Source: a virus. Taken from it: 22,266 nucleotides of DNA. Where the stretch lies: the IMG/VR virus record IMGVR_UViG_3300017764_000130, positions 1 through 22,266 of that record. One strand, 5' to 3'. This document shows, one piece after another, positions 3,184 through 14,049 of this stretch. The notes beneath the pieces were generated by a model. That model was not told the origin of the DNA. It saw nothing but the letters and a program-made list of their open reading frames with translations, and made no database searches. The translations under genes were made by a program, and so were the position numbers. The first letter of the stretch is position 1. Each line of letters opens with the position of its first letter.

Positions 3184-3553
3184 TTAATTCACCTTCCGCT
3201 TCATCGACGATTCTTACTATTAGCCTCGATAAGTTGACCAGCTCCTCAAGCTCAACTATTACGATCCACTGCCGTAAGTTCATGCGGTGCATAACGACCG
3301 GCACGTCTTCCTTTTTGGCGTCGTCAATTGCCTGATCAAGCCACTTGTACAGGGTCGTTGTTCCTGACTCCTGACGTTTGCATTCAACGTGCAACCCGTC
3401 CAGCACGCCGTCAGCTCCAAGCACGTCGCCGTGGTCTCCGTCGCTGCCGCAATACTGCCGACTCCGGTAGACGCTGCCCTCTGGCAGGCTCAAGACCTTT
3501 GCAAGACGTTTGGCAAGCTCTCGCTCTGCGCCAGCCCCTTTAGTGCGTTGCAT
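3176..3553 (-). CDS. Holliday-junction-resolvase-like PD-(D/E)XK nuclease
   Basis: The 125-residue product has 'KGAGAERELAKRLAK' at the start, 'YRSRQYCGSDGDHGDVLG' in the middle, and 'LHVECKRQE' after it. This corresponds to E10, D43, E57, K59 and Q61 of the PD-(D/E)XK fold as used by Hjc-like and phage 'ERE-LA..L' endonucleases, followed by a helix with Q74 (LDQAIDDAKK). It would cleave branched DNA from replication or recombination. The ATG at 3551-3553 was chosen because family members begin close to the KG.G.ERELA motif and GGGAAG precedes it; an in-frame ATG at 3607 would place 18 extra residues inside the methyltransferase. It overlaps the methyltransferase end by 14 bp. The precise substrate is inferred. 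Confidence 0.7.
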   Translation of the reverse strand: MQRTKGAGAERELAKRLAKVLSLPEGSVYRSRQYCGSDGDHGDVLGADGVLDGLHVECKRQESGTTTLYKWLDQAIDDAKKEDVPVVMHRMNLRQWIVIVELEELVNLSRLIVRIVDEAEGELNE

Positions 3554-4409
3554 TCTTCCCATTACTTTTTTCCCATTCGAGAATTCTTTCACCAAGAAAT
3601 TGCGCAACTTGTGGTACTACTGCATTACCTAAGCATTTAAGTCTGTCCAACCTTCTGGGAACCCCATCAGCCACTCGACCCACGTCGGGTTCAACTGCCC
3701 AGAATTTCCTGAGGTTCTCACGGCTTCGCGTAAGTTTCCCCGATAAGCCTTGGAACCTAGAAACCGGTTTTTCGGTGAACCTTTCCCGTCCGACGCCGTG
3801 GGAGTCGGCCACCTTCGTATTGGTGTTTTGCTCAAACTGTCGTTCGCTGCAGCCCCCAAGTTCCAACCGTGTGTTCCGTTGCGATGACTCGGAGCTACTC
3901 CCGTTCCACCCGTCATCGCTGTCGCAGTGGGCCACAATAAACACCCTGTCACGTCGGTGAGGCGCACCAACGGCTGCCGCTGGTATGCAATGCCATTCTG
4001 CGTCATACCCGATCTCGGCCAATGATCCGAGAACTTCATCCAACCCCCGAACAAGCAACGCTGCGACGTTCTCCAGTAATAAATACCTTGGCTGGAGTCT
4101 CTCTGTAATTCGCACAACTTCGTAAAATAAACCACTTCTCTCACCTTTTAAGCCTGCGCCCTTACCGGCTGCGCTAATGTCTTGACAGGGGAAGCCCGCA
4201 CAAATTAAGTCAACTTTCCACTGTTCAACGGCGGTCGGTGGAAACGTGCAAACATCATCGTGCCGCCGAACCTCCGGCCAATGCTTTTTCAATACCTTCA
4301 ACGCAAAGCTGTCATTCTCGACCTGCCAAGAGACCTCAAAACCACCAGTACGTTCCAGACCCAATCCAAAACCACCGATGCCCGCAAATAACTCACCGAC
4401 TTTCAGCAC
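3540..4409 (-). CDS. dcm: DNA (cytosine-5-)-methyltransferase
   Basis: The 289-residue C5-methyltransferase has its motifs in order: motif I FAGIGGFGLGLE (8-19, SAM binding), VEND (30-33), motif IV GFPCQDIS with catalytic C75, motif VI ENV (113-115), motif VIII-type PHRRDRVFIVAH (150-161), a short target-recognition region (about 165-235) and motif X LGNAVVPQVA (260-269). No good motif IX is visible in this frame, while a motif-IX-like sequence lies in an overlapping frame (see 3629-4144). The start is GTG with GGAGG 7 nt upstream and a 17-bp overlap with the gene before it. Its likely role is to protect phage DNA from host restriction, or occasionally regulation. It lies in the early operon beside a Vsr-like nuclease gene and two PD-(D/E)XK genes. 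Target specificity cannot be read. Confidence 0.93.
   Translation of the reverse strand: MLKVGELFAGIGGFGLGLERTGGFEVSWQVENDSFALKVLKKHWPEVRRHDDVCTFPPTAVEQWKVDLICAGFPCQDISAAGKGAGLKGERSGLFYEVVRITERLQPRYLLLENVAALLVRGLDEVLGSLAEIGYDAEWHCIPAAAVGAPHRRDRVFIVAHCDSDDGWNGSSSESSQRNTRLELGGCSERQFEQNTNTKVADSHGVGRERFTEKPVSRFQGLSGKLTRSRENLRKFWAVEPDVGRVADGVPRRLDRLKCLGNAVVPQVAQFLGERILEWEKSNGKNATH
3629..4144 (-). CDS. Overlapping-frame protein within the methyltransferase gene (candidate)
   Basis: This 171-codon frame lies wholly inside the methyltransferase gene, shifted +1, over methyltransferase codons 89-260. It starts at a GTG with only a weak ribosome site. Its translation does not look like a random shadow: 'HWPRSGMTQNGIAYQRQPLV', then LWPTATA, 'RWPTPTASDGKG' and 'LNPTWVEWLMGFPEGWTDLN'. 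I recall this set in proteins annotated as methyltransferases or hypothetical proteins next to dcm-type genes, and the last part resembles C5-methyltransferase motif IX. It could be a separate overlapping gene, a relic of an ancestral frame in which motifs IX and X were joined, or a sequence similar by chance because the main frame is conserved. Expression is unproven. Confidence 0.3.
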   Translation of the reverse strand: MREVVYFTKLCELQRDSSQGIYYWRTSQRCLFGGWMKFSDHWPRSGMTQNGIAYQRQPLVRLTDVTGCLLWPTATAMTGGTGVAPSHRNGTHGWNLGAAANDSLSKTPIRRWPTPTASDGKGSPKNRFLGSKAYRGNLREAVRTSGNSGQLNPTWVEWLMGFPEGWTDLNA

Positions 4410-6032: not shown

Positions 6033-6204
6033 TTGGCTTTTCTTTCTTCACCGGGAAAACAACGGCAATCCAGAACCGTAGTAATCCGACTTGCTTGAAG
6101 CCTTCGTTGGTGAGTTCTGTGTCAATCTTGCACAACGCTTTAACGTCGTTTGTGAATACCCTGACTCTTCGGCCTTTGGTTCGATCAGTGTATCTAGCTC
6201 TCAT
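6022..6204 (-). CDS. Hypothetical basic small protein (60 aa)
   Basis: I do not recognise this gene. The product is strongly basic at the N-terminus (MRARYTDRTKGRRVRVFTND) and ends with a hydrophobic strand (LLRFWIAVVFPVKKEKPNG). It overlaps the replication gene upstream and the Lar-like gene downstream by 11 bp each, so it looks like a genuine member of the coupled operon, although its ribosome site is weak (AAGGA about 12 nt away). Confidence 0.5.
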   Translation of the reverse strand: MRARYTDRTKGRRVRVFTNDVKALCKIDTELTNEGFKQVGLLRFWIAVVFPVKKEKPNGS

Positions 6205-7024
6205 ATTTCGCTATTTCCTTTTTCATTAGTTCTGCTTTTTCACTTGTTCCCTGCCCGTTCTTAATCATTTCCACTAGTTGGACGTGTAAAGCCAAAACGT
6301 ACTTTTCACGCTTGCTCTGCTCTGGTGACTTTTCTTTGGGCTTTACGATCACAGTGCCGTCATTCCACGAGTCGGGATGATCTAACCAACGCTCTTGGTT
6401 CAGCCACGTAGACGGCTGCGGACAAAACTCCCCGTGAGCCTTTGGGGACTTAGCAAAGTTGGTAGCGGCTGTGATGATGTTGTCGGGCGTCTCCCGCTTA
6501 ATCGCCTTTTGCCACGCCTTGAACGCTGCCGCCTTACCCTGTTTTCTTTGAGCAGGCCAAAGAGACCAGAAAGAATCAAAAAGCGATGTATATCGCTTTT
6601 TAGTATTTTTATTTATCTTCTCTTCTCTTCTCTTCTCTGGTAACGCTTTTTGTGCGCGATCTGTAACGCTCTCACCGTTACGTTTTCGGTACTCAGAAAC
6701 ACGCCGATTTGTTTTCGCCCTATGTTTTGCGGTCTTTCCGTTGTGGCGGTCAAAGTTGGGTATTAGCACCCCCTCATCAGCGTTAGACAGCCAACCGACT
6801 ACTTGCAGTGATTGCGCAAAACCTGTAACAGATATGTAACGGTCGATCCATTTATATGTAACGCCGTGAGCGTTACCGTTTTCGGTGTGTTGATCAGCCC
6901 AGCACCAGAGCTTGAAAAGGCAACCGACAACCTGCTCTTCAGAGATTTCGAGCATGTCACTCATGCGGATTACCTCCGGACTTGAGTCGAGACCGATCTG
7001 CATTTTGATCCAGTCGCCAGCCAT
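6194..7024 (-). CDS. Phage replication initiator / helicase-loader-like protein
   Basis: The 276-residue product has two domains joined by a charged linker. Residues 1-95 look like the winged-helix replisome-organiser domain ('DWIKMQIGLDSSPEV', 'VGCLFKLWCWADQH', 'IDRYISVTGFAQSL..VGWL', 'LIPNFDRHNGKTAKHRA'). Residues 100-145 are a basic linker with PEKRREEK. Residues 146-222 resemble the DnaT/gpO C-terminal type ('FDSFWSLWPAQRKQGKAAAFKAW', 'FCPQPSTWLNQERWLDHP'). It would bind the origin and bring the host helicase. Shine-Dalgarno GGGAG about 8 nt from the ATG. The DNA of this gene contains repeated GTAACG words and a perfect palindrome, so the origin may lie inside it (6578-6885), as in lambda O. 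Confident as a replication gene; exact family not certain. Confidence 0.82.
   Translation of the reverse strand: MAGDWIKMQIGLDSSPEVIRMSDMLEISEEQVVGCLFKLWCWADQHTENGNAHGVTYKWIDRYISVTGFAQSLQVVGWLSNADEGVLIPNFDRHNGKTAKHRAKTNRRVSEYRKRNGESVTDRAQKALPEKRREEKINKNTKKRYTSLFDSFWSLWPAQRKQGKAAAFKAWQKAIKRETPDNIITAATNFAKSPKAHGEFCPQPSTWLNQERWLDHPDSWNDGTVIVKPKEKSPEQSKREKYVLALHVQLVEMIKNGQGTSEKAELMKKEIAKYES
6578..6885. other. Candidate phage replication origin inside the initiator gene
   Basis: Three elements lie in order. First, repeats of GTAACG/CGTTAC: minus-strand CGTTACA-type copies at 6635-6649, 6658-6671, 6821-6832 (GTTACA), 6831-6842 and 6851-6865, plus inverted copies at 6675-6682 and 6869-6877. Second, four tandem GAGAA units (minus) at 6618-6637 and an AT-rich tract (6597-6617). 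Third, a perfect 10-bp inverted repeat with a 4-nt loop at 6578-6601. In lambda the origin lies in gene O with iterons, an AT-rich purine-biased tract and a palindrome in the same order, between the two domain-coding parts. The repeats are seen; origin function is inferred. Confidence 0.5.
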
Positions 7025-9184: not shown

Positions 9185-9394
9185 TCATGCGTGTAGAGGT
9201 CTACCCCGTCTCGGTTTCTGCACGCTTAGATTTAGAAATTTGTTTATTTCGCTTTTAGTGGTGTACACAGTCCGACCGATTTTGATCGTAGAGAGACCAC
9301 GCTTTTGCCAGTTCGCAATAGTTTGCTCGCTAAGCTGGAAGTGGTCTGCTACCTCCGAGAGAGTTAGCTTGTCTTGAGAAAATGCGTCGATCAT
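9185..9394 (-). CDS. Excisionase/MerR-like HTH protein
   Basis: The 69-residue product is a single small winged HTH: 'KLTLSEVADHFQLSEQTIAN' (9-28), WQKRGL, then IKIGRTVYTTKSEINKFL and a basic tail (QKPRRGRPLHA). Excisionases and the DUF1580 proteins frequent in planctomycetes share this plan ('LTL.EAA......S..T...W...G......IG...YT....I..F'). As the first gene of the early operon, close to the integrase and attP, it is a good candidate for the directionality factor (Xis) or an early regulator. Its promoter region contains four 10-bp-phased repeats (9411-9444) that such a protein could bind. Start ATG at 9392-9394 with a weak GGGGCGG upstream. Confidence 0.65.
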   Translation of the reverse strand: MIDAFSQDKLTLSEVADHFQLSEQTIANWQKRGLSTIKIGRTVYTTKSEINKFLNLSVQKPRRGRPLHA

Positions 9395-9854: not shown

Positions 9855-10133
9855 AGTACACTATTTCGATAAATCCTGTACACTCTTAGTACACTTTTGG
9901 GCTATTCTGAGCCATTCTGGCCTATAGCGAGTTATATTCAGACAGGATTAGTTATTGCGTTTTTCCCGATGTTTCTTTAAGATTTGCGTGTATTCAGGAC
10001 GAATACAAACTATGACCGCTCTAGTCCACATAAACAAATTCACTATGAGTTTTCGTTAAACGTCTAGGGCATTTTAACAAACTGTCAGCGCCAGAAGTGT
10101 ACTGTACACTTTTTACGGCAAGATCAGTACACT
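9855..10133. other. Candidate phage attachment site (attP) region
   Basis: Six copies of GTACACT occur. Three lie at left, all plus orientation (9856, 9878, 9889). Three lie at right (inverted 10096-10102; plus 10104 and 10127). Midway is TGTATTC-AGGAC-GAATACA (9989-10007), a perfect 7-bp inverted repeat around a 5-bp centre, like integrase core sites flanking the crossover. The integrase begins 16 bp after the last repeat. Arm-type and core-type assignment is inferred; the repeats could instead be operators. The stretch between the gene at 9851 and the integrase holds nothing else I can identify. Confidence 0.5.
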
Positions 10134-10148
10134 ATTCTCGGAGGTTCT

Positions 10149-11354
10149 ATGAGTACAAAATACCCTAAACTGTGTCGTCATAAAGGTCGCAAAATTGGCT
10201 ACGTAAGAATAGACGGTAAACAGCGTTACCTTGCCGGGACTTGGCACGATCCCGCAAAGCCGTCGAGCGAACTGCTCGCAAGCTACGAGGCGTTCAAATA
10301 TGAGGTTGATTTGGCTGCTGCTGGTGGCACGCACTCAATAGCTGAATTGCTTGAGAAGTACACTCGATTTTTCGCCAGTCGGGAAAGTCGCTCTGTATCT
10401 AGGATCAGAAACGACAACGGTAAGCTTAATAAACTGAAGAGAATGCTGCGGCCTTACAACGATCTTACATTTGAGCAGGTAACCGTACAGGATTTATCCA
10501 ACATTCGTGAGCGTCTGACTTCTCACGGGTACGCAATCAGCTCCGTTAAAGATTACTGGAGCCATTTACACGTTTTTATTAAGTGGTGCATATCTAGAGG
10601 ATTCTGCCAGCCGGACATTGCGATTAAGGAAATGTCACTCCCGCAAATAAATCTTGATCAGTATCCGACCGCAAAGCCTCCTAAGCAGCGCGAGGCCGTT
10701 AGTTGGGAGCAGGTTCGGTTGACGATGCCACATTTGAGCGAGACGCTTCAGACGGCTCTTCTGGTGTCTCTCGGTACGGGTGCAAGGCCTCAAGAGGTTC
10801 TTGACATGAGGTGGGAAGATATTGACACGGCTAAGCCTGTTTGGGAATACCGACCAGAGCATCACAAAATGAAGCGGCTTAATCACGACCGCTGTATCTA
10901 CATCTCGCTGCCAGTCCAGCAGCTCCTTAAAGAATACCAGTTACGACGGCTCGACCCTGATGCGGAATACATATTTACAGGGGCTGAGTCTTGGGCGTAT
11001 TCAATGGCCAAACGGATCGGTGAAGAGCCTGCTGAGACCTTTAGGATGAAACCCAACAACGTTACTAACCGGCTGGACTCTCGGCGAATGTATCAGGCTG
11101 TCAAACGTATCTGCGTTCGAGAAGGAATCGAGCCTTGGACGCCCTACCAGACCCGCCACTTTTTTGCAGAGACGATGCTTGCCAAGCTCAGCGACCACTT
11201 CAAGGGCAACGGCAGCGAAGGCTTAGCTATTGAAGCTGTGAGTGCGATGCTTGGGCACAAGAGCCTTGAAATGACTCAGCGATATTCGAAGCGTAACGTC
11301 TCGCTTTCTCGTGATTTATTAGAAGAGGTAAATATCTCTTTTTCAATTTCATAA
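10149..11354 (+). CDS. int: Tyrosine recombinase (phage integrase)
   Basis: The 401-residue integrase has an N-terminal arm-binding-like region (1-60, HKGRKIGYVRIDGKQRYLAG), a SAM-like core-binding domain (about 62-165), and a catalytic domain with R213 (GTGARPQEVLDMRW), a lysine at 240 or 242 (HHKMKR), R336 and H337 (TPYQTRHFFAE), H370 (MLGHKS) and nucleophile Y379 (TQRYSK). The first His of the HxxR box is replaced by Tyr (Y333), a variant I believe occurs in planctomycete integrases. The ATG is preceded by GGAGG 5 nt away. It is rightward, opposite to the early and late genes, directly follows the candidate attP and ends before a strong terminator. It catalyses integration between attP and a host site. 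Confidence 0.95.
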   Translation: MSTKYPKLCRHKGRKIGYVRIDGKQRYLAGTWHDPAKPSSELLASYEAFKYEVDLAAAGGTHSIAELLEKYTRFFASRESRSVSRIRNDNGKLNKLKRMLRPYNDLTFEQVTVQDLSNIRERLTSHGYAISSVKDYWSHLHVFIKWCISRGFCQPDIAIKEMSLPQINLDQYPTAKPPKQREAVSWEQVRLTMPHLSETLQTALLVSLGTGARPQEVLDMRWEDIDTAKPVWEYRPEHHKMKRLNHDRCIYISLPVQQLLKEYQLRRLDPDAEYIFTGAESWAYSMAKRIGEEPAETFRMKPNNVTNRLDSRRMYQAVKRICVREGIEPWTPYQTRHFFAETMLAKLSDHFKGNGSEGLAIEAVSAMLGHKSLEMTQRYSKRNVSLSRDLLEEVNISFSIS

Positions 11355-12667: not shown

Positions 12668-13408
12668 CTACCCCGCAGAGACTGAAACAGTGACACCTGT
12701 CCAGTCACAAAAGTTAGTCCCGTTATGCCACGGCGTTGAAGGCTCGGGACTCAGACTAATGTTGTTAAAGTCACAGTCGTAGTCATCACCGGACTCGTCA
12801 GCTTGACCGATGTACGTAAGAGCTGCTGACGAAAAGAACGGGTTGAGCCGCCAGTCAGTGTCAGGGAGCTTAATGCTGCCAAATCCTGCGTCACACCAAT
12901 TCGTAACGGCAGGGTCTCCGTTTGGGTTGTTAAAGGCTGCGCTGGCCGCTGTCCAAACCCTGCACCAAAGTTTTCCGTCCGATTCAATGTAAAACTGAAT
13001 CATGTTTATCTGGTCTACAAGCTCGAATCCGATTGAGCATGACGTACATTTCGGCCACGTTGAATCGTATTGACAATTAAAGAAACCCCACCACTCGCAA
13101 TGCCCCCTAGGATCGCCGTCCGCAGGAGTGCCGTTTGTCCAGTATTTCTGGAGTGAATATGTCCCGTTATAATTCGCGCAGTTCGTGCAATTCGCCAGCA
13201 TACGCCTCTCACCAAAGCCGCCACAGCCTCCCGTCTCCGTAACTATACCGGCAATCGTTACGTCAATTTCACAAGGTGGGGACGACGCACAAACACAACA
13301 ACAACGCTCTTGTGGATCGTAAGAGCTACCACAATCATTCGTCTTAGAATTACAGCACGGCGTAGAATCGCAACAACTGCAGTCTCCGGGGTCATACTTA
13401 AAATTCAC
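12668..13408 (-). CDS. Cysteine-rich tail-region protein (246 aa)
   Basis: I recognise no domain. Of about 246 residues, 22 are cysteines, many clustered at the N-terminus (CSCC, CC, CCCVC) and the rest as CxxC or single Cys next to aromatic residues. The remainder is rich in Gly, Trp, Asp and Asn, beta-like, with many aromatics (WGFF, RVWTAASAAF, TDWRLNPFF). Such a composition suits a disulfide- or metal-stabilised extracellular receptor-binding tip. The GTG at 13406-13408 is chosen because it overlaps the previous stop (GTGA) and GGAGG lies 10 nt upstream; a TTG at 13415 sits too close to that site. It follows the tail-tip genes in the late transcript. Confidence 0.65.
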   Translation of the reverse strand: MNFKYDPGDCSCCDSTPCCNSKTNDCGSSYDPQERCCCVCASSPPCEIDVTIAGIVTETGGCGGFGERRMLANCTNCANYNGTYSLQKYWTNGTPADGDPRGHCEWWGFFNCQYDSTWPKCTSCSIGFELVDQINMIQFYIESDGKLWCRVWTAASAAFNNPNGDPAVTNWCDAGFGSIKLPDTDWRLNPFFSSAALTYIGQADESGDDYDCDFNNISLSPEPSTPWHNGTNFCDWTGVTVSVSAG

Positions 13409-14049
13409 GTTGTACAATCCTCCGCATCAACAACCCAATCGGAGGTGAGACCAAGCTGTTTGATCGTGATGTACTTCGAACCACCAACGGCGGTTTGACT
13501 CCAGTTGTAAACCGTAATGCTGCTGCCTGTGCTTGATAGACTACCGGACGACAAATAACAGACAGTACAACTTGCACTTCCGGCAGTGCTACCGCTTCGC
13601 GCAGGTATTCCACCTGACGACGTTTGAGCAATCGCTGTCTGATTTGGTTCTTCAACAAACCAGAAACCGGATTGGAAATCACGATAGCAATTGATGATCG
13701 TTCCGACCGGTACTGCCAACTTTGAAAAGTTATATATCACCACCTCTGTTCGTTCGGTTTCCACCAGTTCGTAAATGTAGGTGCTAGTTGGGTATGCAAT
13801 CTTTTGGATTCTTAATTGGGTTGCTTTGCCCTCAGCAATATTCCGGTTAGCAGTAGACCCTGACGCAATCGTCGGGTCACTCGGCTCAATCTTTGTCGTG
13901 ACTTTGAAAAAAGCACTGTTGGAAGGTGCTTGCGTCGCGCGCATCTGTGCCAGGTCAGCTTTCAACTGACGAAACTGATTCTTTAGCTGTTCATGATCTC
14001 GTTTAATTTTTTGAACAGACTCGTAATCAAATGCGTAACTAGAAGGCAT
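13405..14049 (-). CDS. Tail-region structural protein with N-terminal coiled coil (214 aa)
   Basis: The product begins with a coiled coil (YESVQKIKRDHEQLKNQFRQ, LKADLAQMRAT; residues 10-40). A beta-rich body follows with 'FFKVTTKIEPSDP', 'YELVETERTEVVIYNFSKL', 'VPVGTIINCYRDFQSGFWFV' and a Ser/Gly-rich C-terminal part. A trimerising N-terminal coiled coil joined to a beta domain suggests a fibre or tip subunit. Its start overlaps the previous gene by 11 bp and its end overlaps the cysteine-rich gene by 4 bp, so the two are coupled. Function inferred from position. Confidence 0.65.
   Translation of the reverse strand: MPSSYAFDYESVQKIKRDHEQLKNQFRQLKADLAQMRATQAPSNSAFFKVTTKIEPSDPTIASGSTANRNIAEGKATQLRIQKIAYPTSTYIYELVETERTEVVIYNFSKLAVPVGTIINCYRDFQSGFWFVEEPNQTAIAQTSSGGIPARSGSTAGSASCTVCYLSSGSLSSTGSSITVYNWSQTAVGGSKYITIKQLGLTSDWVVDAEDCTT

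Follow-up and report, generated by a model that had tools for sequence, protein, structure and literature searches.

The initiator gene and its iterons

The window analysed here, an IMG/VR virus record of 22,266 bases taken at its full length, carries an integrase, a C5-cytosine methylase and structural genes alongside a gene for a replication initiator. This gene, and the DNA elements that lie within its codons as a putative replication origin, are the subject of this analysis. The elements comprise two blocks of iteron half-sites (A and B), a purine tract, a short AT-rich stretch and a hairpin, as follows.

6194 to 7024, minus strand: initiator gene, 276 amino acids, with an N-terminal DNA-binding domain, a charged linker and a C-terminal domain
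6871 to 6876, minus strand: block A half-site GTAACG, left arm of a dyad, at the same place in homologues
6858 to 6863, minus strand: block A half-site CGTTAC, right arm of the dyad, 13 bp from the left arm
6836 to 6841, minus strand: block A half-site CGTTAC, exact word
6825 to 6830, minus strand: block A degenerate half-site TGTTAC, 11 bp further on
6680 to 6736, minus strand: codons of predicted helix 97–115, the proposed recognition helix (AlphaFold2 model and covariation)
6676 to 6681, minus strand: block B half-site GTAACG, left arm of a dyad
6663 to 6668, minus strand: block B half-site CGTTAC, right arm of the dyad, at 13 bp
6640 to 6645, minus strand: last block B half-site CGTTAC, 1 nucleotide (nt) before the tract
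6616 to 6638, minus strand: purine tract (AGAGA)4AGA on the coding strand, 23 nt, proposed unwinding or single-strand element
6597 to 6615, minus strand: short AT-rich stretch after the tract, read from the sequence
6578 to 6601, minus strand: hairpin AAAAAGCGAT-ATAC-ATCGCTTTTT, a perfect 10-bp palindrome with a 4-nt loop

The protein was matched by PHROG 2509 over residues 1–143, i.e. its N-terminal domain (E=1.6e-53), and also by PHROG 9474 and 270; all three are labelled 'replication initiation protein'. A Pfam search found no informative family, and DUF1376, the first idea for this protein, was rejected because PF07120 gives no match to it. The C-terminal region is weakly DnaT-like (E=0.046). 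The AlphaFold2 model (predicted local distance difference test score, pLDDT, 86) has a confident N-terminal domain and a helix at 97–115; a helix at 95–113 may bear a likeness to bZIP basic regions. When the full model was used for a fold search of the PDB, the best E was not below 0.7, and a BFVD structure search returned other phage initiator-like proteins only. Neither search named lambda O, with which no direct comparison was made.

An exact-word search of the window placed GTAACG on the plus strand at 6640, 6663, 6836 and 6858 and the variant GTAACA at 6825, which gives five same-direction copies, and the inverted CGTTAC at 6676 and 6871. These are the five direct and two inverted copies reported by the first-pass annotation, within a few bases of where it had put them. 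They form two blocks about 200 bp apart, A at 6825–6876 and B at 6640–6681. The earlier description had them all on the linker between the two protein domains; this holds for block B, whereas block A lies within codons of the DNA-binding domain. Direct copies are present, but the natural unit is a 19-bp dyad and not a simple direct repeat. At the place of the degenerate TGTTAC (6825–6830), the homologues L014 and L071 have an intact CGTTAC.

The word CGTTAC occurs 6 times in the 831-bp initiator gene (7.2/kb) versus 18 times in the other 21.4 kb (0.84/kb), an 8.6-fold higher density; equal density elsewhere, which would have spoken against an origin, was thus not found. Shuffles that fix the protein and its codon usage predicted 1.5 copies (p = 0.001). 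Yet GTACAC likewise has 6 copies within 272 bp, upstream of the integrase, so that raw word density alone is weak evidence. The strength of the case for an origin comes from the relatives rather than from density in the window.

Iteron words, the proposed recognition helix and displaced copies

Viral contigs and a single genome for each species were scanned for relatives; this yielded 147, and 15 phage relatives were added. The commonest 6-mer exceeded synonymous shuffles (p<0.05, k=6) in 88 of 134 distinct homologue genes, and the enriched copies are mostly placed in the two regions seen in the window gene. The word itself varies (GTAACG, GTCACG, GTCCGC, GTAGAC and rarer ones), but the geometry is kept: dyads with half-sites 13 bp apart number 31, 22 and 53 for the three main words, and direct neighbours stand 11–12 or 22–23 bp apart whichever the word. 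The comparison of homologues thus came out in favour of the repeats. Half-sites occur in all codon frames. In the homologues, block B is situated in the linker, ahead of the tract. Block A lies at nt 132–200 in GTAACG and GTCACG genes and at nt 48–110 in GTCCGC genes; the DNA element has therefore moved relative to the protein.

Three residues of the proposed recognition helix, 101, 105 and 109, covary with the iteron word, and we propose that they set its specificity. Residue 105 is D or E in 52/52 GTCCGC genes, T or G in 44/51 GTAACG genes and A in 17/24 GTCACG genes. Residue 101 is R in 51/52 GTCCGC genes, and residue 109 is K in all of these and V in 37/51 GTAACG genes. The codons concerned (nt 301–327) lie outside both iteron blocks. 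A rule built on the three residues, which is a fit rather than a blind test because it was derived and scored within one family, gives the enriched word correctly for 113 of 126 genes; two genes conflict with it and the rest have few copies. Synonymous shuffles are exceeded 3–5x by the predicted word but not by the others, with the exception of a mild GTAACG excess in the GTCACG class. Relatedness was controlled for in clusters of similar N-termini that contain two words, where 32/32 were as expected (p = 0.0005). For instance, L107 and L111 are 74% identical over the N-terminal 90 residues, yet differ in word and in specificity residues. From this covariation we infer that the encoded protein binds the iterons.

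We considered the possibility that the words are recognised by a methylase or nuclease of the phage and not by the initiator. The window does contain a C5-methylase gene (3540–4409), and a methylase gene adjoins the initiator in epsilon15 and in Vibrio phage 1.211. However, the word follows the helix residues of the initiator, also within close clusters, and many members show no methylase beside the initiator, which makes this explanation highly improbable.

The elements are also found away from the coding sequence. In L024, listed together with G001 as a case of intergenic iterons and tract, the initiator gene has neither iterons nor tract, but the same contig has GTAACG dyads and a tract in intergenic DNA at 13171–13445, where 232 bp separate an A-like dyad from a B-like one. 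Half-sites and tract occur a second time in intergenic DNA of this contig, at 9384. A homologous protein without repeats, which had been named as a potential refutation, therefore does occur, but with the repeats elsewhere in its contig, and does not refute the origin. L110 encodes a protein of 127 amino acids with its stop codon within the iterons and the tract just after. In L105 and L056, block B lies 300 nt further down, still against the tract. L264, a 4.6-kb phage fragment, has iterons and tract in intergenic DNA.

The L264 array (3250–3335) is mixed, with GTAACG and GTCACG dyads besides the tract; this fragment would represent either a phage whose origin is intergenic or an element that relies on the initiator of a different phage. 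The initiators of L056, L068 and L049 contain an in-frame HNH-endonuclease-like domain within block B, at a point between the recognition helix and the tract, which looks like the insertion of a homing nuclease into the origin.

A natural exchange is provided by the Rac prophages of E. coli 442/2 and MG1655. The N-terminal parts of their initiators are 24% identical (38/161) and the C-terminal parts 89% (87/98), and each has its own linker iterons. Because this pair has different DNA-binding domains and iterons but a common C-terminal domain, and because iterons and tract persist in intergenic DNA when the gene lacks them, we conclude that the DNA itself matters. Rac carries an active origin, oriJ (PMC3945230). 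The linker of MG1655 ydaU (NC_000913; L357 220–1077) contains direct copies of GATGTTCAA and the inverted TGTTCAAACA/TGTTTGAACA, and these repeats are a candidate for the oriJ site.

The purine tract and the hairpin

The sequence directly after block B is AGAGAAGAGAAGAGAAG. Four GAGAA units had been noted at 6618–6637; the tract is there, but it extends over 23 nt, from 6616 to 6638. This longest purine run of the gene compares with 12.6 in synonymous shuffles (p = 0.025), and the family medians are 23 and 12.8. Among relatives found by protein similarity only, the distance from the last half-site to the tract is 1 nt in 41 genes and 12 nt, longer by one helical turn, in 16. As with DnaA-trios, we thus find a strand-specific short repeat at a fixed distance from the last double-strand site.

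A blind search of 2.9 million viral contigs with the 20-mer ACCAGAGAAGAGAAGAGAAG gave at least 120 loci. Among the 120 matches listed, 115 fall in this initiator gene family, and two of the other five (L228 and L275) belong to it by sequence; another tract carrier from this search, L257, is a DUF1376 protein (PF07120 match). Without the leading ACC, (AGAGA)4AG was present at 158 loci, a count over the collected loci and not a whole-database total, 144 of them in the initiator family and 14 outside its blast match. Three of the 14 (L228, L275 and L343) are family members or carriers of the same iterons. Most of the remainder are linker-type proteins of unknown function or other initiators (Phage_rep_org_N, Lin1244_N, and PHROG replication initiation or replisome organizer proteins), and several of the non-family carriers have their own upstream repeats.

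Could the coding sequence account for these elements? The conserved peptides GVT, SVT and ALP and the charged EKRREE linker might create the words by chance; a charged linker is indeed what the tract codes for, and the residues specified by block A are conserved. The words are, however, lost in synonymous shuffles, and the same word is read in all frames. Furthermore, the arginine codons of the tract are AGA rather than AGG (194:2) in genes of median GC 0.575, as against 91:135 outside the tract. A comparison of AGA with CGN was dropped as circular inside a purine run. The reading frame of the tract is no evidence in itself because the pentamer gives the same charged peptide in any frame; it is the codon choice and the existence of intergenic copies that identify the tract as a DNA element. 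Constraint by the protein is thus already contradicted, and we give it almost no weight. The sequence comparisons argue for the GAGAA tract as a separate conserved element.

One proposal for the action of the tract is that it works through DNA shape, as a mirror-repeat homopurine triplex under supercoiling or as a rigid phased tract, and not by having one of its strands bound. (AGAGA)n is identical when read in either direction, and the sharing of the tract by unrelated initiators fits a physical role. Many members nevertheless have interrupted tracts or tracts of 6-nt period (L135, L141, L148, L161), which break perfect mirror symmetry, and we consider this mode of action unlikely. A broader view, to which we give somewhat less than even odds, is that (GAGAA)n is a general unwinding element of phage origins. 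It would correspond to the DnaA-trio, would not depend on the DNA-binding domain of the initiator and would be common to many unrelated initiator families. A common factor (loader, helicase or shared initiator surface) would read it, and every family would bring iterons of its own, which in the present family are readable from three helix residues.

The tract is also present in the linker of three open reading frames (ORFs) of unknown function, in L301, L307 and L337 (PHROG 15768, 29280 and 28809), some with repeats upstream of it. On account of the tract, these proteins are candidate phage initiators, a role that the sequences suggest.

Beyond the tract, the AT-rich stretch (6597–6615) and the 10-bp palindrome with its 4-nt loop (6578–6601) are both present, as first annotated. 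The family mean AT content is 0.66 at +10 to +30, partly because of the tract itself, versus 0.43 gene-wide; no extended AT-rich region was seen in the family mean beyond about 30 bp. A perfect stem of at least 6 bp with a 4-nt loop occurs within 60 nt after the tract in 42 of 154 family genes, as compared with 4/445 control windows further down the same genes. The 42 hairpins have 41 distinct stems, but their loops converge on two forms, C(TNAC)G and C(TAAA)G (CTAACG 10, CTGACG 6, CTAAAG 5, CTTACG 3). The enrichment with differing stems indicates that the palindrome is a real but optional element, conserved as a structure and not as a sequence. As a general element of the family it was rejected, since about 70% of the genes have no such hairpin.

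A putative intragenic origin and its known counterparts

GC skew was assessed as an independent indicator. In the window it is monotonic with no switch, and thus uninformative. In three of four complete circular replicons among the relatives, the minimum of the detrended cumulative skew falls within about 0.8 kb of the initiator tract: at 38860 in pT7-7, a plasmid record with phage genes (initiator gene 38043–38816), and at 24857 and 34994 in two others (genes 25259–26002 and 35140–35955). The skew check, in which a switch far from the repeats would have counted against an origin, does not refute it.

Iterons inside the initiator gene and, beside them, an AT-rich, strand-asymmetric tract are what an intragenic origin should contain, and we consider it very probable that the segment is a phage replication origin of the theta type that lies within the gene for its own initiator. 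The sequence is best read as a lambda-like intragenic origin that also has a second block of iterons, a locked tract for unwinding and a specificity helix that can be read. The original proposal of a phage origin whose sites are bound by the encoded protein gains strong support, of a comparative kind, from the kept geometry, the covariation of word and helix, and the survival of the elements outside coding DNA.

Alternatively, the repeats might be operators through which the protein autoregulates its operon, with replication starting elsewhere. Autoregulation is common among winged helix-turn-helix proteins, and block A lies early in the gene, where binding could block transcription. Against this, block B stays locked to the purine tract even where the two are displaced together (L105, L056). 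The module is found again in unrelated initiator families and at intergenic positions distant from the promoter of the initiator, and the skew minima are near the gene. We therefore regard operators as quite unlikely.

Several observations weigh against an intragenic origin or limit the case for it. The skew minimum of CP2 does not fit the initiator position, and skew minima lie roughly at points of transcription divergence, a confounder. Few recognisable iterons are present in the homologues L005, L088 and L100, block A has no demonstrated role, and the helix rule was scored in the same family in which it was drawn up. No helicase-loader gene is recognisable beside the window initiator; in several relatives a DnaC-like, P-like or ATP-binding gene adjoins the initiator. 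In the literature searched, oriJ is neither placed at base level nor mapped to ydaU, and there is no binding, footprint, melting or replication assay for this initiator family.

If the segment is an origin, the N-terminal domain would bind the 19-bp dyads (GTAACG / CGTTAC) as a dimer through helix 97–115, and a nucleoprotein complex would assemble on block B, which block A might join by looping unless it serves copy control. Strain at the phase-locked edge would then melt the tract, one strand of which could be held by the initiator or a loader. The C-terminal domain, DnaT-like or of another module type, would recruit helicase and loader, and the hairpin may present a single-strand structure for loading or priming. 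Because site and binding domain lie in one stretch, they could recombine as a unit, and specificity would change as a cassette.

Origins are unknown for most phages, and here one could be located to the base from sequence, with the recognition word predictable from three residues and the melting edge recognisable by a tract which also points to initiators among families of no assigned function. Testable questions are how a protein-to-site code evolves when both occupy the same bases, whether a single-strand element of the trio type is in use among phages, and why initiator genes harbour origins, for which the Rac pair suggests recombination of domain and site as a cassette.

Two observations concern other parts of the window. 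Six GTACAC/GTGTAC words at 9855–9898 and 10091–10136, comprising AGTACACTATT twice, AGTACACTTTT and the inverted AGTGTACT, precede the integrase start at 10149 and are likely integrase arm sites or repressor operators. The C5-cytosine methylase gene (3540–4409) overlaps a long ORF (3629–4144) in another frame.

The open-access literature searched contains neither the tract string in a phage context nor a description of this family's origin, and a search of mostly open-access literature found no description of the two-block design, the phase-locked shared GAGAA tract or the helix code. The closest known system is lambda ori in gene O, likewise an origin inside the initiator gene, whose iterons are inverted repeats followed by an AT-rich region with a coding strand rich in A and G (PMC7466680). 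The likeness to lambda first drawn from the order of the parts holds for this layout; the protein resembles O in layout only. Lambda has four 18-bp direct iterons in one cluster, whereas the window has two blocks and another half-site; its GAGAA tract stands at 1-bp spacing, while the A/G run of lambda is further from iteron 4; and it adds a tetraloop hairpin of a conserved class.

Rac oriJ is similar in that the initiators of Rac belong to this group or are analogous to it and have iterons in the linker, though ydaU of MG1655 is a DUF1376 protein with a different N-terminal family. Iteron plasmids (RK2, F, R6K) also have a Rep protein that binds phased iterons, next to which lies an unwinding region containing strand-specific repeats; their iterons are direct repeats within the origin (PMC10797057), unlike the inverted dyads in initiator codons found here. 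Finally, in bacterial oriC, with DnaA box and DnaA-trio, and in the DNA unwinding element repeats of Vibrio cholerae ori2, double-strand boxes are followed by a short strand-specific repeat near the last box (PMC10797057). The window initiator is not DnaA, single-strand binding of its tract is a proposal, and its repeat is a purine pentamer and not 3'-(G/A)AT-5' or 5'-(G/A)ATCA-3', but the order of double-strand sites and strand-specific repeat is the same.
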